A stretch of DNA of 64,000 nt from Gammaproteobacteria bacterium (GTDB lineage Bacteria > Pseudomonadota > Gammaproteobacteria > Ga0077554 > Ga007554), in NCBI GenBank assembly GCA_040183005.1, contig JAMPIW010000007.1, positions 682,001 through 746,000 of the forward strand, read 5' to 3'. This document shows positions 1-56,921 of the stretch, piece by piece. The notes under the pieces are model-generated. The model was not told the origin of the DNA. It saw only the letters and a program-made list of their open reading frames with translations, and searched no databases. Position numbers and translations under genes: made by a program. Position 1 is the first letter of the stretch; each line of letters opens with the position of its first letter.

Positions 1-436
1 GGTAGTCCAGTCCGTACTTGCTGAAGCGGTAAAAGTCACGCGGCTCTTCGTGCAGGTGCCAGATAAATGGGACGCTATAAATCGCCACGCCGCCCGGCTT
101 CAGTACGCGATAACACTCACGCAGAGCCTGTTCGGGCTCTTCCAAGTGTTCGAGAACAGCAGAGCAGAGCGCAGAGTCGAACGAAGAATCTTCCGCCGGG
201 ATAACATAAGCCGTACCAAAAAGATCGACATTGTCCTTGCTGTGGAACGTGCCTTCGTGATCAACGCCGACGTGTTCGGTGACGTATGACTTAAGAAGTT
301 CGGCGTAGGGTTTGGTACCGCAGCCGATGTCGATAATGCGACCAGAGATATACCTCTTACCCATATCGAACAATTCTCGCTGCACGATCCATTGTACAAG
401 AAGGTTCTTAGGGCTCGAATTGATTACTCCAAGCAT
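1..436 (-). CDS. class I SAM-dependent methyltransferase (3' end outside window)
   Basis: The minus-strand reading contains the SAM-binding motif IDIGCGTKPY, then the acidic VGVDHEG strand end, then LEHLEEPEQALRECYRVLKPGG, the usual post-I and motif III region of class I methyltransferases. About 145 residues are visible and the C-terminus lies beyond base 1. The ATG at 436 has AGGAA six bases upstream, and its A is the last base of the preceding gene's TAA, so the two are translationally coupled. It is the last visible gene of the exopolysaccharide operon and probably modifies a sugar or a polysaccharide intermediate. The substrate is not readable from the sequence. Confidence 0.85.
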   Translation of the reverse strand, partial: MLGVINSSPKNLLVQWIVQRELFDMGKRYISGRIIDIGCGTKPYAELLKSYVTEHVGVDHEGTFHSKDNVDLFGTAYVIPAEDSSFDSALCSAVLEHLEEPEQALRECYRVLKPGGVAIYSVPFIWHLHEEPRDFYRFSKYGLDY

Positions 437-978
437 TATTTGTTCCTGTTTAATATTTTGATAACTCTAGCCGGTGCTCCACCAACCAGAGCATTGCTAG
501 GCACATCTTGCGTAACTACAGAGCCCGCAGCAATGACTGAATCATCACCAATCCTCACGCCGGGTCCAATAACAGCATGGGCATAAACAATGACCCGATC
601 ACCAATTATTACCGGAGCAAAACAATGATGTTCTGGCCCTTTTAGGTAGTCTGTCCGGCTTGAAAAAATTCCAACCCCTGGTCCACAATCAAAGTTTTTG
701 CCGATGCGAATTCCACCGGGACCTGCACCATAAAATACACAGTGAGGCGAAATCACGGCCTCGTCACCGATTTCCAGAACACCCTGTCGCTCGCACCAAT
801 CCATGCCACCAAGATGTAAAACAACACCAGTTTGAATTTGGACATTTTTACCAAGCTTCAAATTGGCTATAGCTCCCTTAATAACCACACCTTGCTCAAT
901 CTTCGCAGTAGGAAATTGCCTACTAATTCGTTGGATAGCAAGGAATACCCTCAACATATTCAGAATCGCGGCAATCAC
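436..978 (-). CDS. hexapeptide-repeat (left-handed beta-helix) acyltransferase, WbbJ-like
   Basis: A 180-residue protein with the imperfect hexapeptide spacing of left-handed beta-helix acyltransferases. The end (VIGPGVRIGDDSVIAAGSVV, then a short VP..ALVGGAPARVI tail) is diagnostic of the maltose/galactoside acetyltransferase-like group. It probably transfers an acetyl or other acyl group to a sugar of the exopolysaccharide in the cytosol. The start is GTG at 978, with AAGGAG nine bases upstream, and overlaps the stop of the preceding gene by 3 bases. A His within the FYGAGPGG..YLKGPEHHCF stretch is a plausible catalytic base. The acceptor sugar is unknown. Confidence 0.9.
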   Translation of the reverse strand: MIAAILNMLRVFLAIQRISRQFPTAKIEQGVVIKGAIANLKLGKNVQIQTGVVLHLGGMDWCERQGVLEIGDEAVISPHCVFYGAGPGGIRIGKNFDCGPGVGIFSSRTDYLKGPEHHCFAPVIIGDRVIVYAHAVIGPGVRIGDDSVIAAGSVVTQDVPSNALVGGAPARVIKILNRNK

Positions 979-1964
979 TTTACGAATCTCCTTGCAACTT
1001 GTATGGCGGCAGTAGCGGTCGAGACCAGTCTCGATGTTGCTACTATCACGTTGGATTCGATTGCTTGCGCACCGAAGCTACGCTTAAATGCCATGACACC
1101 CTCAAGTCCCCCGCTGGGATTAAAGTCAAACCACTTAGAGCCCCGCTCAGAAGCGTCTTTGATTACTTCATACATCAGCAAGTTTACCGGTCTTAATTCG
1201 AAATGGCTTGATAGTGCCGCCCCATGCCAGTACACAACATGCGTCGGAGAATAGAAACAGAGCGCCCCTGCAATCATTAAACCATCATGCTTGGCTAACC
1301 AAAGCCTGACATTGGGTGATGTCCGCCGAAAAACTGCTTCGAAAATATCCCAAGAGTAAGCTGACGTTGTGTTTTCGCCCCAGCGATTCAATGAGTCCTC
1401 GTACACACGAAAATAGTTTTTCCAGTCTTCTAGGGTTTCGGCTACGCATACCTCGACCCGTGCTTTGCGTGCTTTGCGTGCAGCCGATGCGTGCCCCTTT
1501 GTCCAGCCACGATAGATTTCTTCGAAACCGATAGATAAATCCAAGGCATGGGTCTCGCCCTCGGTTAGGCAGCCAAGTCCGCCAGGATGTAATACCTTTT
1601 CATAAGGATTAAAGCGCCATATCAAATCGGGATAACGCTTGACGATCAATTGCATCAGCAATTTTTGCTGTGGCTCATCAAGCGAGACTTTGGCAAGCCA
1701 CCCGCCAAACGTACCGCCTGGCGAGGAAATATGTCGCTTTGCGAGACCTTTGAGTGTTTTTTCTTTACTGAACGGCAAAACAATCTGCGTCCCATCAGAA
1801 AGTGCAATCCCCAGAGGATCGGGTGTAATTTTTCCCTGACTGTAATCCGCCCATATCTCAACCCACTCTCTACTATGGAAATAGGTTGAGTACAGACAAT
1901 TACGCCATGCATCATCCCACTCGCCCGCTAATGGCACCCAAGTTTTTACAATGCTCAAAGTCAT
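975..1964 (-). CDS. FemAB/BioF2-like GNAT-fold acyltransferase
   Basis: A 329-residue protein of the FemAB-like or BioF2-like double-GNAT group found in exopolysaccharide and PEP-CTERM loci. Features seen are WRFNPYEKVL near residue 115, the basic stretch GHASAARKARKARV around 159-172, MIAGALCFYSP near 230 and the C-terminal WFDFNPSGGLEGVMAFKRSF typical of the second GNAT domain. The ATG at 1964 overlaps the preceding aminotransferase's stop (ATGA), and its own stop overlaps the next gene's start. It may acylate an amino sugar made by that aminotransferase; this is inferred from gene order only. Confidence 0.8.
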   Translation of the reverse strand: MTLSIVKTWVPLAGEWDDAWRNCLYSTYFHSREWVEIWADYSQGKITPDPLGIALSDGTQIVLPFSKEKTLKGLAKRHISSPGGTFGGWLAKVSLDEPQQKLLMQLIVKRYPDLIWRFNPYEKVLHPGGLGCLTEGETHALDLSIGFEEIYRGWTKGHASAARKARKARVEVCVAETLEDWKNYFRVYEDSLNRWGENTTSAYSWDIFEAVFRRTSPNVRLWLAKHDGLMIAGALCFYSPTHVVYWHGAALSSHFELRPVNLLMYEVIKDASERGSKWFDFNPSGGLEGVMAFKRSFGAQAIESNVIVATSRLVSTATAAIQVARRFVK

Positions 1965-3130
1965 TGCTTGGTCAGTGCTGCTTTTACCGCAACGACGACA
2001 TTTTGCTGGTCTTGTTCCGTCAGCTTCGCCGAAATCGGCAAACTCACAATCTGCCGTCCAATGCGCATCGCATTAGGATAATTCTCTGGTTTCCAGCCGA
2101 AGGTTTGCTGGTAGTAAGGATGTTCCGGGATGCTCATGTAATGCACACCCACACCAATGCCTTCGGCGGTCATGCGATCAAGGAACTCATCCCGCGAGAC
2201 ACCAGTTTTCTCTTTATCAATAAGAATGGTGAACAGGTGGTAGGCGTGGCGGGTATTTGCTTCTACCGGGGCGGGCAGGCCGATGGGCAAATCCCAGAAG
2301 GCTTTCATGTAATGCTGCCAGATTTGGCTACGCCGCTGCCCATAGGCTTCGACACGCTTCAGCTGGTGAACACCGAGCGCGGCTTGCATATCCATCATGT
2401 TGTATTTGAAACCACACTCCACTACTTGGTAATGCTTGAAACCTTCATCCCCAAAGCGTTTCCAGGCATCTTTGCTCATGCCGTGCAGGCCGAGTACCTT
2501 AAGGCGGGCAATATCTTCGTCGCGCTTGGCGAGCACCATGCCGCCTTCGCCAGTCACGATGTTCTTGGTGGAATAGAAGCTGAAACAGCCAAAATCGCCG
2601 AAGGTTCCGGCCTTACGGCCTTTGTATTCGGTTTCAATGGCGTGGGCGCAGTCTTCAATGACCTTGAGGTTGTGTTTTTCGGCGATGCTCATGATGGCAT
2701 CCATATCGCATGCCCGCCCCGCAAAATGCACCGGGAGGATGGCTCGGGTACGCGGGGTGATGCGGCGATCGATCTCGTTCGGGTCAATATTCATGGTTGC
2801 CGGATCAACATCGGCCAGTACCGGTGTGGCGCCAGCGTGAATGATGGCGTTAACCGTGGCGCAGAAGGTGAGCGGCGTAGTGATAACTTCGTCGCCAGGC
2901 TTAAGATTTGCCACCAGCAGACTGAGATGCAGCGCCGCCGTGCAGGAATTGAGGGCGACGGCTTGGGGGACACCTTTGTATGCGGCAAAGTCGGATTCAA
3001 ACTGGGCCACGCGTGGGCCAGTGCCGATCCACGAACTTTTCAGGCAGGCGATGACTTCATCGATTTCAGCCTCTTCGATGAGCGGTGAACCGAAAATGAG
3101 AAAATTTTCTTTGGGGCGTATCGGATTCAT
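1961..3130 (-). CDS. DegT/DnrJ/EryC1/StrS-family PLP-dependent sugar aminotransferase
   Basis: A 389-residue fold-type I aminotransferase that makes amino sugars from nucleotide-linked keto sugars. The family motifs are EDCAHAIET (cofactor-binding Asp), GCFSFYSTKNIVTGEGGM (the Lys of STKN is the Schiff-base lysine) and GFKYNMMDMQAALG. The reading frame stays open 49 codons upstream to 3277, but homology begins at MNPIRPKENFLIFGSP, so the start is set at 3130. GAAGGG lies 12 bases before it, a weak ribosome site. It heads the run of four overlapping genes that ends at the left edge. Its keto-sugar substrate is not identifiable here. Confidence 0.9.
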   Translation of the reverse strand: MNPIRPKENFLIFGSPLIEEAEIDEVIACLKSSWIGTGPRVAQFESDFAAYKGVPQAVALNSCTAALHLSLLVANLKPGDEVITTPLTFCATVNAIIHAGATPVLADVDPATMNIDPNEIDRRITPRTRAILPVHFAGRACDMDAIMSIAEKHNLKVIEDCAHAIETEYKGRKAGTFGDFGCFSFYSTKNIVTGEGGMVLAKRDEDIARLKVLGLHGMSKDAWKRFGDEGFKHYQVVECGFKYNMMDMQAALGVHQLKRVEAYGQRRSQIWQHYMKAFWDLPIGLPAPVEANTRHAYHLFTILIDKEKTGVSRDEFLDRMTAEGIGVGVHYMSIPEHPYYQQTFGWKPENYPNAMRIGRQIVSLPISAKLTEQDQQNVVVAVKAALTKQ

Positions 3131-3292
3131 GGGTGCGTGTTTCCCTTCAATTGAATTTTTGTTGTGGCGCGACATGTTCAGCGGCATAACAATTCCACGG
3201 GTCGACCGACAACCGACTTTGCTTTTTCTCACCAGATGCAGTGCGGGGATTATCCACGGATTCCGGTAATCAAACATGCAGTCGATTGTCGC

Positions 3293-3394
3293 TCATGACT
3301 TGTACGTGTAGCGGTAGACATAGCCCTTGTACCCGTAACGGTAGCGCTGACGCGTGGTATCCAAATCGTTGAACACGAAGCCCTTGACCTGCAC
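3293..3394 (-). pseudogene. C-terminal remnant of a second exopolysaccharide tyrosine kinase
   Basis: 34 codons encode the same tail as the complete kinase that ends at 6414: VQVKGFVFNDLDTTRQ followed by the tyrosine cluster RYRYGYKGYVYRYTYKS and stop. About 106 bp align with 5 mismatches, and those inside the codons are synonymous. This looks like an old paralogue or recombined gene end rather than a fresh duplication. The similarity stops abruptly at about 3394, where a dispersed palindromic repeat begins, so the rest of this kinase copy has been deleted. Confidence 0.85.
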
Positions 3395-3400
3395 CCCCCC

Positions 3401-3469
3401 GTTCGCCCTGAGCCTGTCGAAGGGTTCAGGATGCGTGGCGGGTGGTTCGACAAGCTCACCACGAACGGT
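3401..3469. repeat. dispersed palindromic repeat (GTTCGCCCTGAG family)
   Basis: The unit GTTCGCCCTGAGCCTGTCGA is followed by GGTTCGACAAGCTCACCACG in opposite sense and can fold into an imperfect hairpin. The same unit, whole or in part, recurs at 4010-4069, 4372-4398, 6121-6178 and 55481-55538. It abuts the truncated kinase end. Confidence 0.85.
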
Positions 3470-3552
3470 TAAACGAACAGTATTGGCACAGGTGATACAT
3501 GTTGCGTTCGCATTCGCGCCATGCGTCTTGCAGCCGAAGTATTGAAACAATG

Positions 3553-3860
3553 TTATTCATAGCAAAATACCGGTTTGTTTGGCAATAAAAAAATGGGTGG
3601 TCGGATTTTACGTGAAGGGTAATCCAGCAATACATCTATTTTTTGCTCTCCCAGTTTCATTTGAATCTTGGCCTGAAAGGTACAACAGCTCGCGCTATTG
3701 CATCGACATCAACTTGATCTGTTTCGATCAAAAGGTCGATGTCCCCTCCTCGTTTGTTGTCATCCACTCTTGATCCAAACAGCCACACATCCGCTCCCAT
3801 ACCAAAGGTTTCAGCAACGGCTGCGCGAATGATGGTGCGCTGTTGATCTGTTAGTCGCAT
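3553..3860 (-). pseudogene. MNT-type nucleotidyltransferase, apparent frameshift
   Basis: The ATG at 3860 follows AAGGATAG, a good ribosome site. The first 67 codons hold the nucleotidyltransferase signature GSRVDDNKRGGDIDLLIE (GS-R then D-x-D). This frame ends soon after VVPF, whereas the next frame continues with FQAKIQMKLGEQKIDVLL, the normal end of this small family, and stops at 3553. A one-base change near 3672-3685 explains the split. Intact relatives of about 100 residues are usually antitoxin partners of HEPN proteins, but no partner is adjacent. A sequencing error or recoding would also fit. Confidence 0.75.
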
Positions 3861-3977
3861 ATCTATCCTTGTATCGTACCTTGTTGTTGAGCACGAGCGC
3901 GCCAGCAACTTTCACCGCCACGGCGATCCCGTTGAGCAGGCTAGTCTTAACGGCTCTATGTGGAATACAGTGGGCAA

Positions 3978-4341
3978 TCAACTTTCAACCTCAGGCAGAA
4001 GATCTAAATCCGTTCGTCCTGACCCTTCGTCTGCGCTCAGGATTAAAGGTATTGTCGAAGGATGAGCGGATTTACTTTTCGCCAAGCGAGAAACTTCTGT
4101 CCAATCGCCACGCATCATGGCTTCTTTTTTCTTACGGCTCCATCCTTTGATTTGCATCTCGGCCGTTAAGGCTTCTTCTCGAGTGACACACTCCTGCGAC
4201 CAAGCAAGCTCTATCGGACGGCGCGTTGCGGTATAACCCGCACATTCTCCGGCTAGATATTGCCCCATTCGCCTTTCAAGATTGTCGGTGTGCCCGGCGT
4301 GAGCTACCGTCGGCACAGCGGAGAATGTAAACCCAAAACAT
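3978..4341 (-). pseudogene. GIY-YIG nuclease-like gene, frameshifted and with altered C-terminus
   Basis: From the ATG at 4341, with AAAGGA upstream, the frame reads MFWVYILRCADGS, the GIY-YIG N-terminus of the YhbQ/UPF0213 group. It then loses frame near 4305, where about two bases are missing at the usual YY(A/V)GHT position. The adjacent frame continues with GHTDNLERRMGQYL, RRPIELAWSQE and QIKGWSRKKKEAMM, all typical of the family. The last 20 or so codons (around SADEGSGRTDL) are encoded by an inserted copy of the dispersed repeat at 4010-4069. The product is probably not functional. Confidence 0.8.
4010..4069. repeat. degenerate copy of the GTTCGCCCTGAG-family repeat
   Basis: CGTTCGTCCTGACCCTTCGT and the downstream ATTGTCGAAGGATGAGCGG match the two arms of the repeat at 3401-3469 with changes. 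The copy forms the artificial C-terminus of the GIY-YIG pseudogene. Confidence 0.65.
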
Positions 4342-4371
4342 TTCATTTGTCCTTTTCAGACCATCCGTCCA

Positions 4372-4398
4372 TTCTTCGACAGGCTCAGGACGAACGGT
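4372..4398. repeat. single arm of the GTTCGCCCTGAG-family repeat
   Basis: TTCGACAGGCTCAGGACGAA is one arm of the family. It lies just upstream of the GIY-YIG pseudogene and about 90 bp from the end of an open frame that starts MTMEPKITGKFPIIP on the minus strand, which it appears to truncate. Confidence 0.75.
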
Positions 4399-4474
4399 TG
4401 GTGGTGGACACACGCGGCGTTTCTATCTGGAATTGGAATAATGGGGAATTTCCCTGTTATCTTGGGCTCCATCG

Positions 4475-4585
4475 TCATAATAATTGCCCATCTTTGAAGG
4501 CAATATCGTGGATGGGCAGACGCATGAGGTTGGGTGCGCTGAGCAGCACGTCCACCCTGCGTCCGTGCATGGTGCGTGACGCTAA
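4475..4585 (-). pseudogene. 3' fragment of a gene split by the toxin-antitoxin element
   Basis: If the element at 4586-5630 is removed with one copy of its TAA target duplication, the epimerase-like frame at 5631-5757 runs in phase into this fragment (LASRTMHGRRVDVLL and on to IAFKDGQLL) and stops at 4475. In-phase continuation supports a single ancestral gene, but the C-terminal residues are not recognised as epimerase sequence. An ATG (MTMEPKIT) overlaps the stop and may be the start of a following gene, cut off by the repeat at 4372. Confidence 0.5.
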
Positions 4586-4612
4586 GGGCCTGTTCATAAA
4601 ACGTCTCTCCAT

Positions 4613-5023
4613 TTAACCGTGTTTTCTCACCATTTCATTGGCGAACATCGCGAGATCGTCACAATGCGTTGCAATGATGCTGCGCACAATCGCCCAATCA
4701 ATCTCGCGGTAATCATGCACAGCAATATTGCGAAAGCCGATCATCTTCTTAAGATGGTCGGCAAGCGGTAAGGATATTTCCTGCGCCCGTTCCAGCAAGT
4801 CGAACGCCGATTTGCTGTCCTTGGGCAATCCGAGCCTCTGCAATCTGACGACGTGCATGGCAAGGTCTATCGCCGCCTCGCAGGCGCGTTGCAGGTTGAG
4901 CACGATGGCATCCTGTGCATCGAAAGACTGATCCAAATCCTGCTGATGGCGGGCATAGGTGTCATGCACTCGCGCCAAAGCGCGCTCTATTATCTCTGCC
5001 TTGTTCAGCACAATGTCGTTCAT
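4613..5023 (-). CDS. hepT: HepT-like HEPN ribonuclease toxin (DUF86)
   Basis: A 136-residue all-helical protein with the HEPN signature RNIAVHDY (R-x4-H-x-Y) near residue 105, the RNase active site that is also the site modified by the partner. In this family the toxin cleaves RNA, and the MntA antitoxin silences it by adding AMP to the motif tyrosine. The ATG overlaps the mntA stop by 4 bases (ATGA), so the two are co-translated. The stop is only 13 bp from the left inverted repeat of the surrounding element. All motif residues are present, so it should be active. Confidence 0.9.
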   Translation of the reverse strand: MNDIVLNKAEIIERALARVHDTYARHQQDLDQSFDAQDAIVLNLQRACEAAIDLAMHVVRLQRLGLPKDSKSAFDLLERAQEISLPLADHLKKMIGFRNIAVHDYREIDWAIVRSIIATHCDDLAMFANEMVRKHG

Positions 5024-5469
5024 GTTGGGCGCGCCTCTGCGCCAAAGACGCTGCCCCGCTGTTTGATGGCGGAGATGATCTCTGCCCGCTCTTCGTTCAG
5101 CCGTGCGTATTTGGACAGCGCGGTCATTTCAAAGCGCTGCGCCGCCGTTTCATCACCGGTATAAATACGTTCGCCACTGCTCACAACATGCGCGACAAAA
5201 ACAGTATCGCATCGGTGCAGGTCGGCGATGTCGAGATTATCCTCACGACAGGCCTTCTGCAATTCAGCGGAAAACGACATCGATTTTTCAAGCGCTAGTG
5301 GCCGTTCAGAAAGAAAGGCAAGATCAATGTCGCTATCGGCACGCATGTATTCCGTGCCAAAAGAACCATGCAGATACACCGCGATCATTTTCAATCCGGT
5401 TGCCTCAATCGCCAACGCTATGGATTGACGGAACTTGCTCAGATCATCTCGTTTGATGGTGCGCATCAC
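5020..5469 (-). CDS. mntA: MntA-like nucleotidyltransferase antitoxin
   Basis: A 149-residue protein with the minimal nucleotidyltransferase motif GSFGTEYMRADSDIDLA around residues 35-51 (GSxG then DxD). It is the length expected of MntA antitoxins, which AMPylate the HEPN toxin. The start is GTG at 5469 (GGAGG nine bases upstream) or ATG at 5466. The stop of a small upstream frame overlaps the start as TGATG, so translation is coupled. It is intact, unlike the stand-alone nucleotidyltransferase at 3553-3860, and is cotranscribed with hepT. Confidence 0.9.
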   Translation of the reverse strand: MMRTIKRDDLSKFRQSIALAIEATGLKMIAVYLHGSFGTEYMRADSDIDLAFLSERPLALEKSMSFSAELQKACREDNLDIADLHRCDTVFVAHVVSSGERIYTGDETAAQRFEMTALSKYARLNEERAEIISAIKQRGSVFGAEARPT

Positions 5470-5612
5470 ACTAACTGTCCTCCGATTTCTTGCTCGCGTC
5501 GCTTGGCGATACCTTCTTCAAGCCATGAGGTCACGTCTTGCATCAACACATTAATCTCCTTAGCGCCAAACAACACCGCAGAGCGCCCGTCAGTGACGTT
5601 CAAATATAACAC
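5466..5612 (-). CDS. small open frame coupled to mntA, function unknown
   Basis: A 48-codon frame (GTG at 5612; MLYLNVTDGRSAVLFGAKE and on to EEGIAKRREQEIGGQLV) fills the space between the right inverted repeat and mntA. An AAGGAG at 5556-5561 sits six bases before an internal GTG at 5549, giving a possible 27-codon leader. Its TGA overlaps the mntA ATG. The basic, amphipathic C-terminal part is real-looking protein, but it is not a family I recognise. It could be a leader peptide, a third module member or the end of a lost gene. Confidence 0.4.
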   Translation of the reverse strand: MLYLNVTDGRSAVLFGAKEINVLMQDVTSWLEEGIAKRREQEIGGQLV

Positions 5613-5630
5613 TTATTTATGAACAGACCC

Positions 5631-5757
5631 TAAGTGTTGAACGTACCAAACCATCGCCACTTTCAGCCCTTCGCTTATGCGGTGGGTGGGTTGATGGCCC
5701 AATAACGTGGCGGATTTTCTGATATCGGCCAGTAATTTAGTTGTTAGGATCGTAAAG
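5631..5757 (-). pseudogene. C-terminal fragment of an NAD-dependent sugar epimerase/dehydratase
   Basis: The frame reads TKLLADIRKSATLLGHQPTH then RISEGLKVAMVWYVQH. It matches the usual end of extended short-chain dehydrogenase epimerases (DI-KA-LLGY-P...EGL...WY). No Rossmann N-terminus is present: the upstream sequence is the unrelated winged-helix fragment at 5759-6076. The toxin-antitoxin element is inserted in the codons right after WYVQH. It is probably a relic of the polysaccharide cluster. Confidence 0.65.
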
Positions 5758-5758
5758 C

Positions 5759-6076
5759 TCATTTATGTTTTGCTTTCTGGTTAAGCAATTGCGCTTGCCC
5801 TGTTTGGGTGAGGCGATATTTCTGAAGGCGGCTATTGGGCTTGTCTGGGATGGTGAGTTCGATCATCGCTTCAAACAAGAGATCGCGCATGGTTTTATTC
5901 AATTGACCAGATACTTCTTTTTGTCCCAGTTTAGCTGAAATATCTTTTTTTGCCATTTCTCCATCAGCTAATAATACAAGCACACGTTCCACTAACGACT
6001 CTGGCTGTGACTGTCCAAGCAGATTATTACTCCACCACGCTGTGAAAACGACGCCATCACACCGCCAGCGAATTCC
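5759..6076 (-). pseudogene. truncated winged-helix C-terminus of an AlbA_2- or Fic-type protein
   Basis: About 105 codons are open from 6076. The segment ADGEMAKKDISAKLGQKE...NKTMRDLLFEAMIELTIPDKPNS...YRLTQTGQAQLL is the C-terminal winged-helix found on AlbA_2/DUF4062-like ATP-binding regulators and on some Fic proteins. The catalytic or DNA-binding N-terminus is missing. The frame is interrupted exactly at the TTAA end of the miniature element at 6077, which creates an in-frame TAA. A GTG at 5992 could start a 77-residue stand-alone helix-turn-helix peptide. Confidence 0.6.
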
Positions 6077-6206
6077 TTAATCCCAGATTGTCCATTTGGC
6101 GAAATAGCGCGTACAACGTCGTTCGTGGTGAGCTGGTCGAACCATGAACGGCCCTTCGACAGGCTCAGTGCGAACGGTTTTGGGGCTAATGGGCAATCTG
6201 GGTTAA
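6077..6206. mobile_element. 130-bp miniature inverted-repeat element, copy A
   Basis: The element begins TTAATCCCAGATTGTCCATT and ends GGGCAATCTGGGTTAA, so its ends are inverted repeats. The core holds the GTTCGCCCTGAG-family palindrome (6121-6178). A second copy in opposite orientation is at 55449-55578. The two align over almost their whole length when one is reversed, with scattered differences. It has no coding capacity. Confidence 0.75.
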
Positions 6207-6413
6207 TTTCAATTTCAATTTCTGGGTAGTCGCGCAGTCTCCTCACTCTTTGCCTGATAACACTCACCGCCAGCGCCCTGCTTATGACTTTTGTCTGGCT
6301 TCTGCGCGCATTCAAGATTCCTCTCGAACCGCTATCGCTCGTAATGCTTGCGCATTGTTCTGAAAGGGTGGGCGGTGTCCTGTCCACACAGCTTGTGTGG
6401 TGTGTGCCTCGCG
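6207..6413. other. intergenic spacer after the tyrosine kinase
   Basis: No gene, hairpin terminator or recognised repeat is visible between the miniature element and the stop codon of the kinase. On the minus strand a short low-complexity TTCAATTTCAATTTC-type tract lies next to the element. Confidence 0.5.
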
Positions 6414-8648
6414 TCATGACTTGTACGTGTAGCGGTAGACATAACCCTTGTACCCATAACGGTAGCGCTGACGCGTGGTGTCCAGGTCGTTGAACACGAA
6501 GCCCTTGACCTGCACACCGGCCTGATTGAGGCGTTTGACTGCCTGTTCCAGCTCACGAATGGGGTGCATGCCGGCGCGTGCCACCAGCAGGGTTGCGCCG
6601 GTCAGCCTGCCTATGATGGCGGCATCGGATACCGCCAGTATGGGCGGGGCATCGACGATGACGATGTCGTGCAGCTCGCTTATGCGCTGCAGCAGTTCCT
6701 CGAAGCGCGGGTGCATGAGCAACTCGGAGGGGTTGGGCGGCATCTGACCGGTGGTGATTAACGTGAGGCCTGGCACCTGGGTGGGCTTAAGGATGTCATT
6801 GAGACTAACACTGCCGCTGACGAATTCCGATACGCCGGACTCGCGCTTCATGCCGAACTCGCGATGGAGATGGCCCTTGCGCAGGTCGGCGTCGATGATG
6901 GCTACCTTCTTGCCGGACTGTGCCATCACCGCACCCAGATTCTTGGAGATGAAACTTTTGCCAACACCTTGTCTGGAGCCGGTGATGAGTATCGAGCCCT
7001 TGGCCGCGTCCAGCAGGGCGAAGTGGATAGTGGCACGCAGGCTGCGCAGGCTTTCTATTGCGTCGTCGTCCGGGTAGTCCACTGCCAGCATTTCACCCTT
7101 GCCCTTGCCGGGTTTTAACGTGCGCGACAGGGCGATTTCCGTTTTGCTGTGCGGGACAGACGCGTAAACCGGCAGGCTCAGTTGTTGTTCGATTTTTTCC
7201 GGGTCTTCCACCACTACGCGCAAGGAGCGCAACAGCCAGATGATGACAATACTGGCCAGCAAACCCAGCAACAGGGAGATACCCATGATGAGCGGCCCCT
7301 TGGGTTCCACCGGATGGCTGCTAACCACGGCCTGATCGATGATGCGAGCGTCGCCTACTGTGCCGGCCTTGGAAACACGTAGCTGCTGGGCGGTATTGAG
7401 CAGTTCGGTGTAGAGGCGGTTAGAGACTTCCACGTCCCGTTTCAGACGCACGACAGCCTGTTGGGTATCGGGTAGCCGGGACACGGTGGCGTTGAGCAGG
7501 CTCCGCTTGGACTTGAGCCGCTCCAGCATGGAATCCGTGGCCTGGATGCGGGGGTGGTCGGGGGTGAAGTTCTGGCGCAGCAGGTCCCGCTCTTGCTGCA
7601 GCTTCACCGTCTCTTTGTCCAGATCCACCAGCGAGGCCAGCACGCCCTGGGTCTCGATATCCAGGTCCACGGAACCCCGGCTCTGGCGATAGTTGTTATA
7701 GGCCGCCTCGGCCGCATCCGACTGTTTTTTTAGAATGGGCAGTTGGGTCTCCAGGAATTTGAGGGTGTTTGCCGCCTCGGCGGAGCGATATTCCACGTTT
7801 TGGCGGACATAGGCGTTGATGATGTCGTTCAATATCACGGCGGTCTGGGTGGCATCGGCGCCTTTGAGGGTGGCCTCGATGATACCGGATAGCTTGACGC
7901 GTTCGTTCACAGCGAAATTGGCACGTAGCCGGTTAATAGCATCCTCTTGCGAGACTCTGGTGAGGATGAAGTGGGTGCCCGGCCGGGCTTTGAGCTGGGA
8001 GATGTACAAGGACATGTCCTTGCCTACGGCGGGTTCGCCCACCGCGCCTTGCAACAGGGGGGCATTGTGGTCATCGAGGAGCTGATAGCGGCCGTTGTCA
8101 CCCGCCACCAGGGTAAGGCGCATGCCCAGCAGGGGGCGGGGCACCTCCAGACTCTCCACCTTGATGAGTTCACCGCCCCAGGCGTATTTTGGTTCGCCAA
8201 ACAGTGGCTCGGCCAAGACAGGCCCATCATGCCACCGCGCCATGGCGGCGCCCATGACGGGCATGTGGGCGGGTGTGGCGACGATGTCCAGCTTGAGATT
8301 ATCCACTACCCGGCCCAGGATCATGCGGGACTTGATGATTTCCAGTTGGGAACTGACGCTGGTGGAATCTTCCTCCATGAGGGGTTGCAGTTCCTTCAGA
8401 GCAGAGACACCTTTCTGCCCCTCTATCTGCAGCAGGGCGTCTGCCTGGTAGATGGGTGTGGAAATAAATAACCAGCCCGCACCCAGGATCACCGCCAGAC
8501 CGGTGACGGCCAGCATCAACCATTTGTATTCCAGGGCCGTGGCGATCATCTCGCCCAGGCTGATTACGTCATCGCCTTCATCCATGGGCAGCTGCGGGGC
8601 TTGTGGACTTGTCGGGGTCTGGACCATGTGGGGCAGATCTGTGGGCAT
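6414..8648 (-). CDS. Wzc/GumC-like chain-length determinant and tyrosine autokinase
   Basis: A 744-residue inner-membrane protein. A Wzz domain has its first membrane helix near residues 42-62. A long periplasmic coiled-coil part follows, then a second helix (LIMGISLLLGLLASIVIIWL) near 440-460. The cytosolic bacterial tyrosine kinase has Walker A GSRQGVGKS near 560, Walker A' VAIIDADLRKG near 590 and Walker B IVIVDAPP near 658. The tail RYRYGYKGYVYRYTYKS is the autophosphorylated tyrosine cluster. It controls polymer length and export together with the Wza-like lipoprotein and the phosphatase just upstream. The ATG at 8648 follows 61 bp after the Wza-like gene. Confidence 0.93.
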   Translation of the reverse strand: MPTDLPHMVQTPTSPQAPQLPMDEGDDVISLGEMIATALEYKWLMLAVTGLAVILGAGWLFISTPIYQADALLQIEGQKGVSALKELQPLMEEDSTSVSSQLEIIKSRMILGRVVDNLKLDIVATPAHMPVMGAAMARWHDGPVLAEPLFGEPKYAWGGELIKVESLEVPRPLLGMRLTLVAGDNGRYQLLDDHNAPLLQGAVGEPAVGKDMSLYISQLKARPGTHFILTRVSQEDAINRLRANFAVNERVKLSGIIEATLKGADATQTAVILNDIINAYVRQNVEYRSAEAANTLKFLETQLPILKKQSDAAEAAYNNYRQSRGSVDLDIETQGVLASLVDLDKETVKLQQERDLLRQNFTPDHPRIQATDSMLERLKSKRSLLNATVSRLPDTQQAVVRLKRDVEVSNRLYTELLNTAQQLRVSKAGTVGDARIIDQAVVSSHPVEPKGPLIMGISLLLGLLASIVIIWLLRSLRVVVEDPEKIEQQLSLPVYASVPHSKTEIALSRTLKPGKGKGEMLAVDYPDDDAIESLRSLRATIHFALLDAAKGSILITGSRQGVGKSFISKNLGAVMAQSGKKVAIIDADLRKGHLHREFGMKRESGVSEFVSGSVSLNDILKPTQVPGLTLITTGQMPPNPSELLMHPRFEELLQRISELHDIVIVDAPPILAVSDAAIIGRLTGATLLVARAGMHPIRELEQAVKRLNQAGVQVKGFVFNDLDTTRQRYRYGYKGYVYRYTYKS

Positions 8649-8709
8649 GAGCGGTGAGTAACCTATCCTGATTATGAGTTGAATTGTGGAGGGGTGGTTC
8701 GAAAACTCA

Positions 8710-9933
8710 TCACGGCTGACTGCCCCCGAAGAGCGGGAATCTGATAAGGCCGGTGGTGTTCAGCAAGGTGGCGGTGGGCAGGACGTTGCTGATCACACGG
8801 TTCCAGCGGGCCACTTCCGCGGCATCCACATAAACGATGTCGCGCGGACGCAGGGGGAAGCGGTCGGCCAGCAGCAGGGCGTCGGGGGACTTGGAGTCCA
8901 GGTGGTAAAGTTCGGGGCTGTCGGTCTGGCCGCGCATGACGAAGATCCAGTGCGGGTTGGCACTGAACTGGTTGATGTAACCGGCTTCAGCCAGGGCCTC
9001 GGCCAGGGAGATGCGCTTTTTATTCATGAAGTAGGAGCCAGGCTTTTGCACCTCGCCCAAAACGAAGACCTTGTTGAACTGACGGTCTGGGACATTGACG
9101 ATGTCGTTGGGCGCCAGCAGGACGTTCTGGCTGACGACGCCTTGCTCGTACAATGCCTGCAGGTCCACTCGCCAGGTAATGCCGGCGCGAGTGAGGAGCA
9201 TTTGGCTATGATCCGCATCCTTGGTGAATCCGCCGGCACGATTGACTGCTTCCAATATGGTCATGGGAATGTCGTCGATCGATTGCTGGCCGGGCTTATT
9301 GATCTCGCCCACCACGTAAACCCGCTTGCTGCGGTAGGAGATGATGCGCACATCGACCTGCGGCTTCTCGATGGTCTTGGCGAGCAACTGAACCAGGATG
9401 ACGCTCACCTCGCGCGCGGTCTTGCCGGCCACTTGGAAGACGCCGGCATAGGGATAGAAGATGGTGCCGTTTTCGGCCACCAAGTTGCCGGACGCTTCGG
9501 GGGTGCGGAAGGAGCCGGCGGGGATGGTGAGTTCGGGGTGATCCCAGACGGTGATACTGAGGATGTCTCCAGGGCCAATTTTGTAGTCGGCCACAATATC
9601 TCGGGCAACCTTGTCCGTATTTTTGTTCTCGGCCTGTTCGATTTCAGTCTGCGTCTGGCTGGCGCTGGCGGCCCTGATCGCCTTCTCCTGTTCGATGATC
9701 AATTCGGCGGTGATGGGCTTGACCTTGACGTTGGCTGGAACCGTCTCGATGTCCTGTTTCACCGGCAGTTTGACTGCAGACTGCTCGCGCATACCGTAGG
9801 TATTGGTACCGGGAATGACGCTACAAGCGGCCAATCCGCCCATCAGCATGGACATTAGGATGAAACGGAAAATGCTGGCAATTCTCTCCGGCCATTTCAG
9901 GATGGTTGCAGGCAGTTGAATGAATACTGTCAT
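8710..9933 (-). CDS. Wza-like polysaccharide export outer-membrane lipoprotein
   Basis: The start at 9933 gives MTVFIQLPATILKWPERIAS, then a hydrophobic stretch and the lipobox GGLAAC, so the mature protein starts at a lipid-modified Cys. The polysaccharide export (Poly_export) domain is seen in DYKIGPGDILSITVWDHPEL, followed by SLBB repeats around VYVVGEINKPGQQSI and VFVLGEVQKPGSYFM. It should form the outer-membrane channel for the polymer. The frame is open to 10062, but the added N-terminus is not signal-peptide-like. It lies between the phosphatase and the kinase, the classical wza-wzb-wzc set. Confidence 0.92.
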   Translation of the reverse strand: MTVFIQLPATILKWPERIASIFRFILMSMLMGGLAACSVIPGTNTYGMREQSAVKLPVKQDIETVPANVKVKPITAELIIEQEKAIRAASASQTQTEIEQAENKNTDKVARDIVADYKIGPGDILSITVWDHPELTIPAGSFRTPEASGNLVAENGTIFYPYAGVFQVAGKTAREVSVILVQLLAKTIEKPQVDVRIISYRSKRVYVVGEINKPGQQSIDDIPMTILEAVNRAGGFTKDADHSQMLLTRAGITWRVDLQALYEQGVVSQNVLLAPNDIVNVPDRQFNKVFVLGEVQKPGSYFMNKKRISLAEALAEAGYINQFSANPHWIFVMRGQTDSPELYHLDSKSPDALLLADRFPLRPRDIVYVDAAEVARWNRVISNVLPTATLLNTTGLIRFPLFGGSQP

Positions 9934-10065
9934 ATTGAGGTTACAATCGCCGTTTTTAAGATACATTAGAATGCTTGTTACTTTGGGCAAAAGCGCAAGG
10001 GATTTTACTATGAATAAAATCCTTTCGTGAATCGGTCTTAACCGTGCGCGCTCATGAATCACAAC

Positions 10066-10515
10066 TTAGTCCTGTGTCTCCAGCTTCCTGACCCAGGGAT
10101 CAAGGCTGGCCTCGATAAGCCGCATGGCATTGGAGTGGGCCTCGCCTCCACGACGGTAGGGATCGGGGATTTCCTGACCGGTCCAGTGCCCCAGCAGGAA
10201 GGTCTTGCCACGGGCGGTGGGGTCCATCTCCACCACCGCATCCCGGTGATGCTTCTCCATGACCAGGATGAGTTCGGCCCAGCACGACAGCTCGGGCGTC
10301 AGTTGCCTGGCCCGGTGGGGGGTGAGATCCAACCCTTTGGCCTGCATCAAGGCCGAGGTAGTTTCTTCCGCAGGATGGTTAACCAAGGCAGCGATGCCTG
10401 CCGAACGGATTTCCACGCCACGCCCCATCTGGCTAAGGTGCTGTCGCAGCAGATACTCAGCCATGGGGCTGCGGCAAATGTTCCCGGTGCAGATGATGAG
10501 AATTTTATTAAACAC
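10066..10515 (-). CDS. low-molecular-weight protein tyrosine phosphatase (Wzb-like)
   Basis: A 149-residue protein with the P-loop CTGNICRS (C-x5-R-S) at residues 10-17 and the general-acid motif DPYRRG near 120, so the catalytic set is complete. In such loci it dephosphorylates the tyrosine tail of the Wzc-like kinase, a cycle needed for polymer assembly. The start is GTG at 10515. It lies 132 bp upstream of the Wza-like gene and 154 bp downstream of the WecA-like gene, all on one strand. Confidence 0.93.
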   Translation of the reverse strand: MFNKILIICTGNICRSPMAEYLLRQHLSQMGRGVEIRSAGIAALVNHPAEETTSALMQAKGLDLTPHRARQLTPELSCWAELILVMEKHHRDAVVEMDPTARGKTFLLGHWTGQEIPDPYRRGGEAHSNAMRLIEASLDPWVRKLETQD

Positions 10516-10669
10516 GTCAGTTCACCTACACATAGCGGCAGACTCATTCACCCGTGTCGGCCGAACGATGTGGCCGAAAAACTGCTCCTGCGCTTTCGGC
10601 AACCCCCCTCGCTTCGCTCTCCCCATCCATGGCGGTCGGATGACGTAGCCAACGCCGTAATCGGAAAAT

Positions 10670-12169
10670 TTACGCTGGTTCGCCACTAGGGTTAACCTCG
10701 GATTTTTTTTCTGTTGGGTAGATCAGTGTCTTGGCTTGCTGATAGCGGCGATCAATATTCGGGCTGTCGCCGTCAGGCGATGTACGGCGGTGCATGAGCT
10801 GGCGTACCTGGACTCCAGGCTGTCCTACCAAGCGCTTTTTGAGTGCGCCTATCAGACGTTTGACTTCACCCAAAGAAATATCATCATCGCTAAGGCGCAT
10901 TTCCAGAACAGCATACACGCTACGCCCACCACGGGTCTCATGATCTATTTCGTGCAGGCTCAGATGATAGTCGTGGCTATTACCCAGTTCCTTGGTCAGG
11001 GTATTCAGGAAGGTTTGCGCCTCCGTTCGCTGGACATAGCCAATGAAGATACCTTGGGCCTGCGCCGAGGGTAGCCCCAGGCGGGCGTTCAATCTGCACA
11101 GGGCGGGCACGAGCCGCCAGGGGCGGGCGATGACGTAGCCATAGGTGGCGAAAGAAAACAGGTAGAGAGCGAACATCAGGTAATCCGGCACGCCCAGCAG
11201 CAGACCTGCTATGCCAATCATTCCAAATGCGAGCTGGATGATGGCGATGATGTGCACAGTGTCGGACACTCTGAAGCCGGCACGTAAGAAAAGATGGTGC
11301 AAATGGTCCCGGTCGGCATGGAAGGGGGACTTACCCAACCAGACGCGGCGCAGCATCACCCCCATGGTATCCATGAGCGGCAGGGCGAATAGCCACAAGG
11401 CGGTGACGGGGGGCATGGCCCTGTCTGGCCCCTGGGACAGATCAATGAAAATCCAGGCGAACATAAAGCCTAGCAGCATGCTGCCGTTATTGCCCAAGAA
11501 GACACGCGCCCGGCTATTGGTGGGATAGCGCAGGTTATAATAAAGAAAGCCCGCCACGCCACCCATAAGGGCAATGATCAAAGTGAGATGGCTGCCTTGG
11601 TCGCCCAAATAGGCGACCAAGGCAGCGAGCGCCAGGCTGACCAGGGACACTGCGCCGGACAGGCCGTCGATTCCATCGATCATGTTGAGGGCGTTGATAA
11701 CGCCGATGGTGGCGAAGACCGTGAATGGGACGGACAGCAGACCCAGATTTAGGTACAGACCGGGCAGGAGCTCGCCCAAGTCACTGAGTACGACTCCGCC
11801 CAGAAAGACCATGAACAGGGCGGCTACAGCTTGTGCGAAAAACCGCACCTTGAAATTAAGATTCCAGATGTCATCGGCCAAACCGGTCAAAAAGATCACC
11901 ACCGCTCCCAGGGCGATGGTCCGCATTTGACCGAGGGAGGTGGAAGGAAAGCGCAAATAGAGCGCCACCAGATAGAGCGAGACAATCAACACGGTCATGA
12001 TGATGCCCGCCCCACCTACAAATGGCGTGCTGGTGCCGTGCTGTTTGTGCCCGCCTGGATGATCCATGATACCGAAACGGCCCGCCAGCGCGATGCTTAT
12101 TCGAATCGTAAGGCCAGAAACCAGCAGACACATACAAAAAAACACGACAAAAGACACAAAAACCTCCAT
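10670..12169 (-). CDS. WecA-like undecaprenyl-phosphate GlcNAc-1-phosphate transferase with C-terminal extension
   Basis: A polytopic membrane enzyme that starts polymer synthesis by moving a sugar-1-phosphate to the lipid carrier. Motifs in order are DHPGGHKQHGTSTPFVGG, the Mg-binding LADDIWNLNFKVRF, NALNMIDGIDGLSGA, FLGNNGSMLLGF and DRDHLHHLFLRAGF. About eleven hydrophobic helices end near residue 325. A soluble tail of roughly 170 residues follows; it is absent from E. coli WecA and contains LNTLTKELGNSHDYHLSLHE and a basic end. ATG 12169 is chosen by homology; the frame stays open to 12277. No strong ribosome site is seen. Confidence 0.88.
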   Translation of the reverse strand: MEVFVSFVVFFCMCLLVSGLTIRISIALAGRFGIMDHPGGHKQHGTSTPFVGGAGIIMTVLIVSLYLVALYLRFPSTSLGQMRTIALGAVVIFLTGLADDIWNLNFKVRFFAQAVAALFMVFLGGVVLSDLGELLPGLYLNLGLLSVPFTVFATIGVINALNMIDGIDGLSGAVSLVSLALAALVAYLGDQGSHLTLIIALMGGVAGFLYYNLRYPTNSRARVFLGNNGSMLLGFMFAWIFIDLSQGPDRAMPPVTALWLFALPLMDTMGVMLRRVWLGKSPFHADRDHLHHLFLRAGFRVSDTVHIIAIIQLAFGMIGIAGLLLGVPDYLMFALYLFSFATYGYVIARPWRLVPALCRLNARLGLPSAQAQGIFIGYVQRTEAQTFLNTLTKELGNSHDYHLSLHEIDHETRGGRSVYAVLEMRLSDDDISLGEVKRLIGALKKRLVGQPGVQVRQLMHRRTSPDGDSPNIDRRYQQAKTLIYPTEKKSEVNPSGEPA

Positions 12170-47119: not shown

Positions 47120-47845
47120 TCATGGGGATTTACTCGCCTCCGCCAGAAACGGTGCAAACAAATAGCGAATCTCATCCAGAGAGTCATTGATGGTATACGG
47201 CATCACTTTGGCAAAAAGATCAAGGAGGATAACGGCGTTCACGGCGGCATCCCTCTCGCTGGCGGCGCGCAGCCGAGCGGCAAGTGCGCTATTAATGATT
47301 TGAAGATTGCGGTAAATCTTAACCAAGCCATCCAACTCAAGATCCGGCTCTCCTCCCTGTTTGTGCAGAAAATACTGTGCCAGCAAATACATGGATGTAG
47401 CACGGTAAATGGTTTCGTCCTCGCTTGCAAAGGGAAGATGAAAGCGTGCCATAGGCTTGAAAAATTCAGCATGCGGGCAAGCGCTGGTTGCCATAGCCAA
47501 GCCCAGCAATGAACTGACACCAGCCTGCATGGTGGTATCTTTTGAGACTACTCGCTCAGGTGTCGTGACTTCCAGATGCACCTTATCGTAAGACCACAGA
47601 CCTCCACACTCCTCTGTCAACTTGACCAGATTCACAGCCACTGGACAGTGCGAGTGAGTATTGGCTTCCAATGGACAATTCGGGCATTGATGAAAATCCA
47701 GCGATGTCCAGGCCGGTGCTTTTTTTTGGTTGCTTTCGATTTGTTCCAGAGAATGTGGGTTTATAGACAAAGTAAAATCTAAACTTCCACCGTCTGGAAA
47801 ACAAAATCGATATTGAATATCCAGGGTTTTTATTTCTTTTCTCAC
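47120..47845 (-). CDS. cysteine-motif protein ending the signalling operon (DUF6901-like)
   Basis: 241 residues from a GTG at 47845 (AAAGGG nine bases upstream); the frame is open to 47887. A short beta-rich N-terminus leads to the motif HQCPNCPLEANTHSHCPVA (C-x2-C-x8-C plus His), a likely metal or Fe-S site. A helical region follows with TTMQAGVSSLLGLAMATSACPHAEFFKPMA and YLLAQYFL. It resembles the DUF6901 group, recalled from memory. It lies 51 bp after the receiver gene and is co-oriented, so it is probably part of that pathway. The second insertion sequence lies 51 bp beyond its stop. Confidence 0.65.
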   Translation of the reverse strand: MRKEIKTLDIQYRFCFPDGGSLDFTLSINPHSLEQIESNQKKAPAWTSLDFHQCPNCPLEANTHSHCPVAVNLVKLTEECGGLWSYDKVHLEVTTPERVVSKDTTMQAGVSSLLGLAMATSACPHAEFFKPMARFHLPFASEDETIYRATSMYLLAQYFLHKQGGEPDLELDGLVKIYRNLQIINSALAARLRAASERDAAVNAVILLDLFAKVMPYTINDSLDEIRYLFAPFLAEASKSP

Positions 47846-55448: not shown

Positions 55449-55578
55449 TTAAACCCAGATTGTCCATTAGCCCCAAAACCGTTCGCCCTGAGTCTGTCGA
55501 AGGGCCGTTCATGGTTCGACAAGCTCACCACGAACGGTGTTGTGCGTCCTATTTCGCCTAATGGACAATTTGGGTTAA
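55449..55578. mobile_element. 130-bp miniature inverted-repeat element, copy B
   Basis: Terminal inverted repeats TTAAACCCAGATTGTCCATT (55449) and, read inward from the other end, TTTAACCCAAATTGTCCATT. The core is the GTTCGCCCTGAG-family palindrome (55481-55538). It is the reverse of copy A at 6077-6206. Its right end contributes the TAA stop codon of the Fe-S oxidoreductase. Confidence 0.8.
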
Positions 55579-56921
55579 ATCCCATACGCCAGGCGCAGCA
55601 GCGTCATTGGGTGCTCTGGCTTGCTGCCGTCATCCAGACCATTTTCAATTTGATGACCTGCCATTGGGCAATCGCTGCTGTAATGGTCTGCCTTGGCCTG
55701 CCGCACGCGATTAAACACCGGCTTGCCGATCTTCATTGAGTTTTCGTGAAACTCGCTCTTCACGGCGTATGTGCCATTATGCCCTGAACAGCGCTCAATC
55801 GGATCAACCTGGGTATCCGGCACCAGTTGAAGAACATCACGGGTCTTGAGCCCAATATTCTGCACCCGCAGATGACAGGCCACATGATAAGAAATATTGC
55901 CTAACGACTGCTTGAAATCGGTATTCAGTCTGCCTTCCTTGTGGCGCAGCATCAGATATTCAAAAGGATCAAAGATCGCATCACGCACCTTGAGCACCTC
56001 TGGATCATCCGGAAACATCAGGGGCAGTTCCTGCTTGAACATCAGCACACAGGAAGGCACTGGCGCGACGATATCCCAACCCTCATCCACCAACCTTGCC
56101 AGCACTGGAATGTTGGCCTCTTTGGCGCGCTCTACCGCCTCCAGATCGCCTAGCTCCAGCTTGGGCATACCGCAGCATTGCTCTTTTTGCGCCAAGGTCA
56201 CGGGGATGCCGTTGTGCTCAAGTACCGTGATCAAATCCATGCCGATCTGCGGCTCATTGCGGTTGCCATAACAGGTGCCAAACAGCGCCACCTTGCCGCG
56301 CGTCTGCTCGGTTGGCACAGGGATTATTTCAACTGCGCGGCGCTGCGCTGCACGCTTGCGCAGGGCGTTGCCATGGAATTCCGGCAAGATGGCGTCCGGA
56401 TGCACGCCCATTATTTTGTCCATTATCTTGCGCACAGTCTTGTTCTTGTTAGCGGCATTCACTACTTGAACCACCACCGGTATGCCTGCCAGTACACCCA
56501 CAGTATCAGTCGAGGCGAGCATCCTGTCGCGGAGTTTGTATTCCCCTTTGCGGTGCTTGACCGCCTTGGCGCGCAGCATCAAATGCGGAAAATCAACATT
56601 CCACGGATGCGGCGGCACATAGGGACATTTGGTCATGTAGCACATGTCGCACAGGTAGCAGTGATCCACCACCCGCCAATAGACCTTTTTATCAACGCCA
56701 TCCAGCTCAAGGCTTTCCGACGAGTCTATGGCATCAAAAAGCGTGGGGAACGCCTGGCACAGGCTAAAACAACGCCGACAACCATGGCAGATGTCGAATA
56801 CCCGCTCGAGCTCTTGTAACAGAGATGTTTCATCATGAAAATCGGGATTTTTCCAGTCCAGCGGGTGACGGGTCGGCGCTTCGAGGCTGCCTTCCCGTTG
56901 GTTTGCAATCGGCTTTGACAT
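55575..56921 (-). CDS. Fe-S oxidoreductase with CCG domains (heterodisulfide reductase/GlcF-like)
   Basis: 448 residues from MSKPIANQREGSLEAPTRHP (GGGAG ten bases upstream). Two ferredoxin-type clusters are seen, CHGCRRCFSLCQAFP (about 63-76) and CYLCDMCYMTKCPYVPP (about 107-121). Two CCG-type cysteine domains follow: FGTCYGNR...EQCCGMPKLE and VACHLRVQ...RCSGHNGTY, ending SSDCPMAGHQI. It probably moves electrons to rubrerythrin in peroxide reduction. The stop codon is formed by the border of miniature element copy B, so the original C-terminus may have been slightly different. Confidence 0.9.
   Translation of the reverse strand: MSKPIANQREGSLEAPTRHPLDWKNPDFHDETSLLQELERVFDICHGCRRCFSLCQAFPTLFDAIDSSESLELDGVDKKVYWRVVDHCYLCDMCYMTKCPYVPPHPWNVDFPHLMLRAKAVKHRKGEYKLRDRMLASTDTVGVLAGIPVVVQVVNAANKNKTVRKIMDKIMGVHPDAILPEFHGNALRKRAAQRRAVEIIPVPTEQTRGKVALFGTCYGNRNEPQIGMDLITVLEHNGIPVTLAQKEQCCGMPKLELGDLEAVERAKEANIPVLARLVDEGWDIVAPVPSCVLMFKQELPLMFPDDPEVLKVRDAIFDPFEYLMLRHKEGRLNTDFKQSLGNISYHVACHLRVQNIGLKTRDVLQLVPDTQVDPIERCSGHNGTYAVKSEFHENSMKIGKPVFNRVRQAKADHYSSDCPMAGHQIENGLDDGSKPEHPMTLLRLAYGI

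Follow-up and report, generated by a model that had tools for sequence, protein, structure and literature searches.

A MITE with apparent IS1380-type ends that very probably carries a separate dispersed palindrome as its passenger

What kind of DNA is the short segment, framed by terminal inverted repeats (TIRs), that lies beside a winged-helix gene frame in this stretch, and how does the palindrome at its centre relate to its ends? The window, that is, the whole stretch of 64,000 nucleotides analysed here, corresponds to C7:682001-746000 of a genome of 3.33 Mb in nine contigs (G000), which was searched in full. The element is genuinely present: the window contained four matches to its TIR pattern, a pair in each copy, and 100 shuffles gave none. 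Copies A and B, in opposite orientation, aligned over their full length, and the alignment ended a few bases from their target site duplications (TSDs). A reading of the sequence alone, hereafter the sequence-only reading, had described copy A as a 130 bp element (6077-6206) bordered by TTAA. The element with its TIRs (15-17 bp) stands, and its length was corrected to 121 bp (Table 1), because the duplications are 5 bp long and 4- or 6-bp comparisons agreed in none of 23 copies; TTAA is accordingly target DNA, namely the first four bases of TTAAT in copy A and of TTAAA in copy B. Copy A is shorter than 300 bp, has TIRs and contains no transposase gene. Both strands of the two copies folded far better than shuffled sequences (z -5.0 to -9.0; none of 200 shuffles equalled them). 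A weak TIR match near position 47670 had no second end there. Half a core unit stood alone at 4374-4400, with no shell around it.

Table 1. Positions of the element copies, their parts and neighbouring features in the window
Feature	Position	Strand	Basis or remark
MITE copy A	6082..6202 (121 bp)	+	Copies aligned; TSDs
Copy A, left target duplication TTAAT	6077..6081	.	Same letters as 6203-6207
Copy A, right target duplication TTAAT	6203..6207	.	Locus L001
Copy A, left TIR (consensus CCCAGATTGTCCATTAG)	6082..6098	+	
Copy A, right TIR	6186..6202	-	
Copy A, core: inverted doublet of hairpin units CGTTCG-NNN-TGAGCYTGTCGAA-N'N'N'	6119..6177	.	Core shared with IS4-type shell and shell-free families; trinucleotide pairing
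MITE copy B (locus L009)	55454..55574	-	TSD TTAAA at 55449-55453 and 55575-55579
Second-MITE remnant: doublet core (3399-3468) and right IS4-type TIR (3469-3485)	3399..3485	.	
5'-truncated gene remnant, Fic-like_C winged-helix domain, directed away from the element	5761..6076	-	

A BLAST search of the genome with the element returned at least 39 matches (40 of 48 candidates were scored), which we sorted into 33 copies or fragments of the copy A-type element, four members of a second MITE type with the same core, the far end of one interrupted copy and one lone half unit. A 20-base TIR pattern matched 51 times, against once for the reversed control. The sequence-only reading had proposed such a TIR search and held that the element would fall if the genome contained two copies only, or if homology continued past the TIRs of both; neither is so, since the matches go far beyond two copies and the homology between A and B ends only a few bases from where their target duplications lie. 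We considered 30 loci of the 39 matches and called a copy near-complete when both ends had at most 4 mismatches to the TIR and its length was 60-170 bp. By this rule 23 loci were near-complete, and seven (L022, L023, L025-L028, and L030) were set aside as truncated, interrupted or more diverged at one end. Identical 5-bp TSDs flanked 16 of the 23 near-complete copies (TTAAA in four, TTAAT in two, ATGAA in two, and eight other duplications once each), and the remaining seven had no exact TSD. When ends were cross-paired between copies, the flanking bases agreed in 27 of 506 pairs.

The flanks of the 30 loci were also compared with loci collected from other genomes. In the related metagenome-assembled genome ND4_Bin_8 (JAKFXX), a clean empty site was found for the copy at C2:117004 (L005/L105; 121+5 bp), where a single TTAAA stands in place of TTAAA-element-TTAAA in G000. 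A second clean empty site in ND4_Bin_8 matched the copy at C7:1361700 (L029/L111; 79+5 bp). Three further copies (L025, L014, and L019) were absent from ND4_Bin_8 in a looser local alignment. The copy A-type element is thus well supported as a MITE. Eleven chosen 121-bp copies differed on average by 7.1% (3.3-10.7%), and copy A was 94.2% identical to their consensus. Because these copies differ by about 7% and a single, decayed IS1380 transposase of G000 scored above cut-off, movement in this genome has probably ceased or become rare.

The relation of copy A to its neighbouring gene did not support what the sequence-only reading had described, namely an element that ends the winged-helix frame by supplying an in-frame TAA from its TTAA border. 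The frame lies on the minus strand, runs from the element downwards and has its own TAA at 5763-5761; the TAA within TTAA (6079-6077) lies upstream of the 5'-truncated remnant. Its product contains a Fic-like_C domain (PF21247, E 2.6e-12) and aligns, from position 6058 downwards, with the last third (residues 234-339) of an ATP-binding protein from Legionella that is 340 residues long. Since the frame matches only the C-terminal part and, within positions 1-12000 of the window, nothing convincingly matched the N-terminal part of a Fic-type gene, copy A lies where the 5' end of a gene remnant is broken off. In a crude ORF call at 23 loci (L001-L021, L023, and L024, a set slightly different from that used for TSDs), ten copies lay between tandem genes, six between convergent genes and two between divergent genes, and five, including copy A, lay inside a called ORF. 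In another part of the window, about 105 bp from the 3' end of a Wzc-like gene (6414-6519) were seen duplicated at 3293-3398, abutting the remnant of an IS4-shell MITE that lacks its left end; the copied gene fragment occupies the position expected for that end.

Two elements with transposase sequence bear on the origin of the outer shell. A decayed IS1380 in G000 (1041 bp, C9:48359-49399) had CCGAGATTTTCCATTAG ends, the TSD ATAAA and pieces of a transposase gene (PF13701), and its TIR equalled the MITE TIR, for which the family consensus is CCCAGATTGTCCATTAG, at 15 of 17 positions. G004, a sister species in the same genus, contained an intact IS1380 of 1470 bp with CCCAGATAATCCATTAG and CCCAAATAATCCATTAG ends, which match the MITE TIR at 15 and 14 of 17 positions; it was flanked by ATAAA and encoded a transposase of 447 aa (NF033539, 255 bits against a cut-off of 180). 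The TSDs of the MITE and of both IS1380 copies have the same length, 5 bp. Because its TIRs agree at 14-15 of 17 positions and its TSDs are like those of IS1380 elements, the outer layer appears to be IS1380-type. In genus g2, where elements measured 49 to 226 bp, the usual MITE TIR was CCCAGATTTTCCATTAG. G004 also contained internally deleted IS1380 forms of 339 bp (C60:64137-64475, TSD TTTAA) and 329 bp (C59:24565-24893). In form, these two deleted copies were intermediate between IS and MITE.

The search for a partner with an identical TIR covered the genome itself and a minority of its relatives, in its family and in the class sample. A profile search of G000 for IS1380 transposases gave one decayed copy above cut-off and no intact partner with an identical TIR. 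With an IS1380 fragment as query, three of eight genomes of the family gave matches, none of them intact with an identical TIR. The class sample yielded matches in 28 of 369 genomes; among the 30 loci listed, TIRs within 2 mismatches were confined to G000 and G004. At none of the 13 named TIR loci did tblastn detect a convincing IS1380.

Four sub-cut-off PF13701 matches in G000 were considered as candidates for a driver. All lay in transposase genes, and the one protein tested belonged to the IS4 family (NF033592, 273.7 bits), its element having CAGAAGTGTCCGG ends; three of the four loci share one element, whose ends are quite unlike the MITE TIR. The CAGAAGTGTCCGG-ended element is not the driver of the MITE, because its protein is of the IS4 family and its ends are quite different. 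At least three near-identical copies of it (99.5-100%; L067-L069, on C7, C9, and C1 of G000) were observed. By its sequence, this IS4-family element would have been active recently in G000 and appears unrelated to either shell.

Inside the shell lies a doublet, in which two units of the form CGTTCG-NNN-TGAGCYTGTCGAA-N'N'N' are inverted around a spacer. Among 44 distinct doublets, the spacer was 7 nt in 23 and 18 nt in 10. Pairing between NNN and N'N'N' (G-T allowed) was kept in 112 of 116 distinct units among the collected loci, with ten combinations, against a mean of 46.8 and a maximum of 61 in 1000 shuffles, a count that is inflated since copies share ancestry and the 116 units are therefore not 116 independent events. 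Two types, CCC/GGG (51) and TGG/CCA (48), made up 99 of the 116, the rest being GGC/GCC (5) and others. As many as 42 of the 44 doublets joined two different unit types; in the consensus, the core of copy A has one TGG-type and one CCC-type unit. The sequence-only reading had called this core REP-like. By structure the comparison is apt, as the units are palindromic and form inverted dimers; it falls short in that the core has no terminal tag and was near none of the RAYT-type loci examined. The core consensus ends in CCGTTCG and CGAACGG, with neither a GTAG nor a CGTC tag at those ends, and an internal TGTC is its sole tag-like motif. No perfect unit lay in the flanking DNA analysed, at most 1.5 kb on either side, of the 25 Y1_Tnp (RAYT-type) loci examined, from 49 matches in eight genomes. 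A RAYT was accordingly rejected as mobiliser of the core, none of these 25 loci bearing it.

The core was found well beyond the elements of G000. In the class sample 31 of 369 genomes had it, 27 of these lying outside the family (no more than two candidates were scored in nearly every genome), and among plasmid records 38 of 72,556 did, mostly from Moraxella and Sphingobium. Of 26 loci fetched from outside the family, 22 had a perfect unit; one had an IS4 shell and none an IS1380 shell with TSD. At two loci from other families (L329 and L352), the core appeared by eye to lie within two further, different inverted-repeat ends.

A second shell enclosed the same core. Of the 31 places in genus g2 that matched the element, 29 covered the core region or part of it only, and many of them were bounded by CAATACTGTTCRNTTAA in place of the IS1380-type TIR. 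Among 19 loci of genome G001 with a CAATACTGTTCRNTTAA-type end, the core was visible by eye in 14 and absent from five (L316 and L320-L323). G001 also contained an IS4-family element of 1513 bp with CAATACTGTTAGTTTAA ends, a transposase scoring 231 bits with NF033592 and 10-bp flanks that were not exact (2 mismatches by eye). Nine distinct IS4-shell elements with a 10-bp TSD (seven exact, two with one mismatch) were present among the collected loci, and all nine carried the core. Eight of them had a perfect unit, whereas the ninth had two mismatches; one belonged to a genome of another family (G134, L334). By eye, the doublet spacer in IS4-shell elements was about 18 nt. Conversely, exact 5-bp TSDs flanked 34 distinct elements of IS1380 type, and the doublet core was present in 21 of them. 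Among the other 13, seven had alternative cores, namely CGTAGCGAGG-type (4), ATTCCCGC-type (2), and CCCCCT-type (1), three (339, 1041, and 1470 bp) held transposase sequence, and three (49, 70, and 70 bp) consisted of little more than TIRs; core flags for the intact 1470-bp IS1380 were treated as chance. Neither the 34 nor the nine elements form a census, many loci having been fetched for a matching core or TIR. Shell and core are thus modules that can be separated: the core also occurs in a second shell and shell-free, and IS1380-type shells also enclose different cores. This bears out, and extends, the nested structure of TIRs around a palindromic core that had been read from copies A and B.

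Two further palindromes were seen beside IS1380-type TIRs. At L062 1742-1815 (G000:C7:1393741-1393814), L225, and L103, a CGTCATTCCCGC palindrome replaced the doublet core between the TIRs. At L026 and L247-L252, a palindromic repeat GTTGGGTC...GACCCAAC lay inside or in place of the core, in several copies. This repeat is a third nesting layer.

We therefore favour a two-layer mobile element, very probably an IS1380-type MITE shell with a separate dispersed palindrome as its passenger. An IS1380-family transposase, acting in trans, would have recognised the terminal repeats of 15-17 bp and transferred the 121-bp unit to AT-rich targets of WTNAA-like sequence, each insertion creating a 5-bp duplication. 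The inner doublet would be a separate dispersed palindrome and no part of the IS1380 ends. It may have been captured by the shell or inserted into it, and then amplified as a passenger, and a parallel capture or insertion with passenger amplification may have taken place in the IS4-type MITE. A bolder version, which we put forward tentatively, would make the doublet a parasite of parasites that spreads independently, settles repeatedly in MITEs and rides on at least two unrelated transposases (IS1380 and IS4). Mix-and-match assembly, with shells also taking in CGTCATTCCCGC- and GTTGGGTC-type palindromes, is part of this same tentative proposal.

How the core came into its shells could also be explained if hairpins exchanged sequence, by recombining or by a switch of template during replication, and the core itself did not move. 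This is a possible account, to be held with reserve. Different cores at similar positions in IS1380 shells are consistent with it, as is the half core present in L029. L004 and L080 speak for it as well: the element and one flank are common to G000 and ND4_Bin_8, the other flank is different and matching TSDs are found in neither, a pattern that would fit recombination between copies. The wide occurrence of the core outside both shells stands against an immobile core, which would need some way to spread. A single lineage, in which the core was born inside the IS1380 shell and later passed to the IS4 shell, would account for the distribution of the 52 perfect units in G000 (IS1380-type copies contain 42, four IS4-type elements contain 8, and 2 stand alone). 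However, it does not explain the core in the 27 sampled genomes outside the family or the single IS4 shell and lack of TSD-bearing IS1380 shells among the 22 perfect-unit loci there, and the spacers differ, being 7 nt in 23 of 44 doublets against about 18 nt in IS4-shell elements; we consider this origin improbable. It is more doubtful still that the element is a functional RNA (terminator, RNase III site or attenuator) kept for gene regulation rather than as selfish DNA. Such a role would suit the strong folding of both strands and the scarcity of copies between divergent genes (2 of 23 in the crude ORF call), but Rfam gave a single match of 15.6 bits against a cut-off of 97 and hence no RNA family above cut-off, positions 5700-6450 contained no promoter- or terminator-like sites, and copies are absent at some orthologous sites. 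Finally, a REP/BIME-type palindrome cluster with no real transposon, its outer inverted repeats being the outer stem of a large palindrome, is hardly credible: although the whole unit folds as one long hairpin and inverted heterodimers prevail (42 of 44) as published for many REP families (PMC3733652), the 5-bp duplications and empty sites, the IS1380 elements with similar ends and the identical core in another shell with 10-bp duplications all contradict it.

The two-layer reading matters beyond this locus. REP-like palindromes are common in bacteria and their route of spread is often unclear, chiefly where no RAYT gene is nearby; a core that is found in shells of two different transposase families suggests such a route, amplification as a passenger. 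As the hairpin repeat also rides in a second, unrelated element, each layer can be examined as a genetic passenger in its own right, and a clean comparative test is possible because duplication length, TIR, and core type tell shell and core apart. For annotation, the element gives a name to many unexplained repeats of the host bacterial family and carries a warning that 'PFDRLRANG'-type peptides in predicted frames (e.g., 3293-3550) are translated repeats.

Among known systems, the IS1380 family (NF033539/PF13701) is closest to the shell. It has similar inverted repeats (CCC/CCG...TCCATTAG) and 5-bp AT-rich TSDs, and intact and internally deleted members occur within the same bacterial family as G000; unlike these, the MITE has no transposase, and an intact element with an identical TIR was not found in the sampled genomes. 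IS1380 has otherwise served as an outgroup to piggyBac (PMC10813416). The IS4 family (NF033592) supplies the second shell, with CAATACTGTT... ends and 10-bp duplications, the ends of the IS4-family element in G001 differing from CAATACTGTTCGCTTAA at 2 of 17 bases; neither copy A nor copy B has a shell related to it. The ATTCCCGC-type core resembles the CGTC-tagged class of REPs, a class in which Neisseria dRS3 is included (PMC3733652).

Miniature elements with the ends of a larger transposon are also represented by TIMEs, which are Tn3-derived and thought to be moved in trans; by the account cited, however, their Tn3-type ends are about 38 bp long and they are usually single copy (PMC4133298). 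QMITE2 of Coxiella burnetii, a MITE of 150-190 bp whose small copies resemble plain REPs, likewise carries a REP inside, but its direct repeats are 7-11 nt and its REP is GTAG-type; the main text of that report mentions neither IS1380 nor IS4, and its passages on QMITE2 consulted here describe no second shell with the same core (PMC5896051). REP dimers inserted in long palindromes have been described in A. variabilis, T. roseum, and H. neapolitanus, and heterodimers are preferred in most REP families (PMC3733652). These, too, are dimers of hairpin units nested within an outer palindrome. In the section devoted to them, those outer palindromes are not recognised as the ends of transposons (PMC3733652), whereas here the ends are IS1380- or IS4-type with TSDs; the present core also differs from those REPs in that neither of its ends carries a GTAG or CGTC tag. 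Among the literature matches listed, mostly non-subscription, none reported a bacterial MITE of IS1380 type or a core occurring in two shells, the MITE review checked does not mention IS1380, and the 13 papers whose text contains letters of the core or TIR look, judged by title, like matches to unrelated oligonucleotides. REPs inside MITEs (Coxiella QMITE2) or inside palindromes (REP dimers) are thus already published, by the accounts cited above; what is apparently new is the IS1380 and IS4 identity of the shells and the presence of one core in two unrelated shells.
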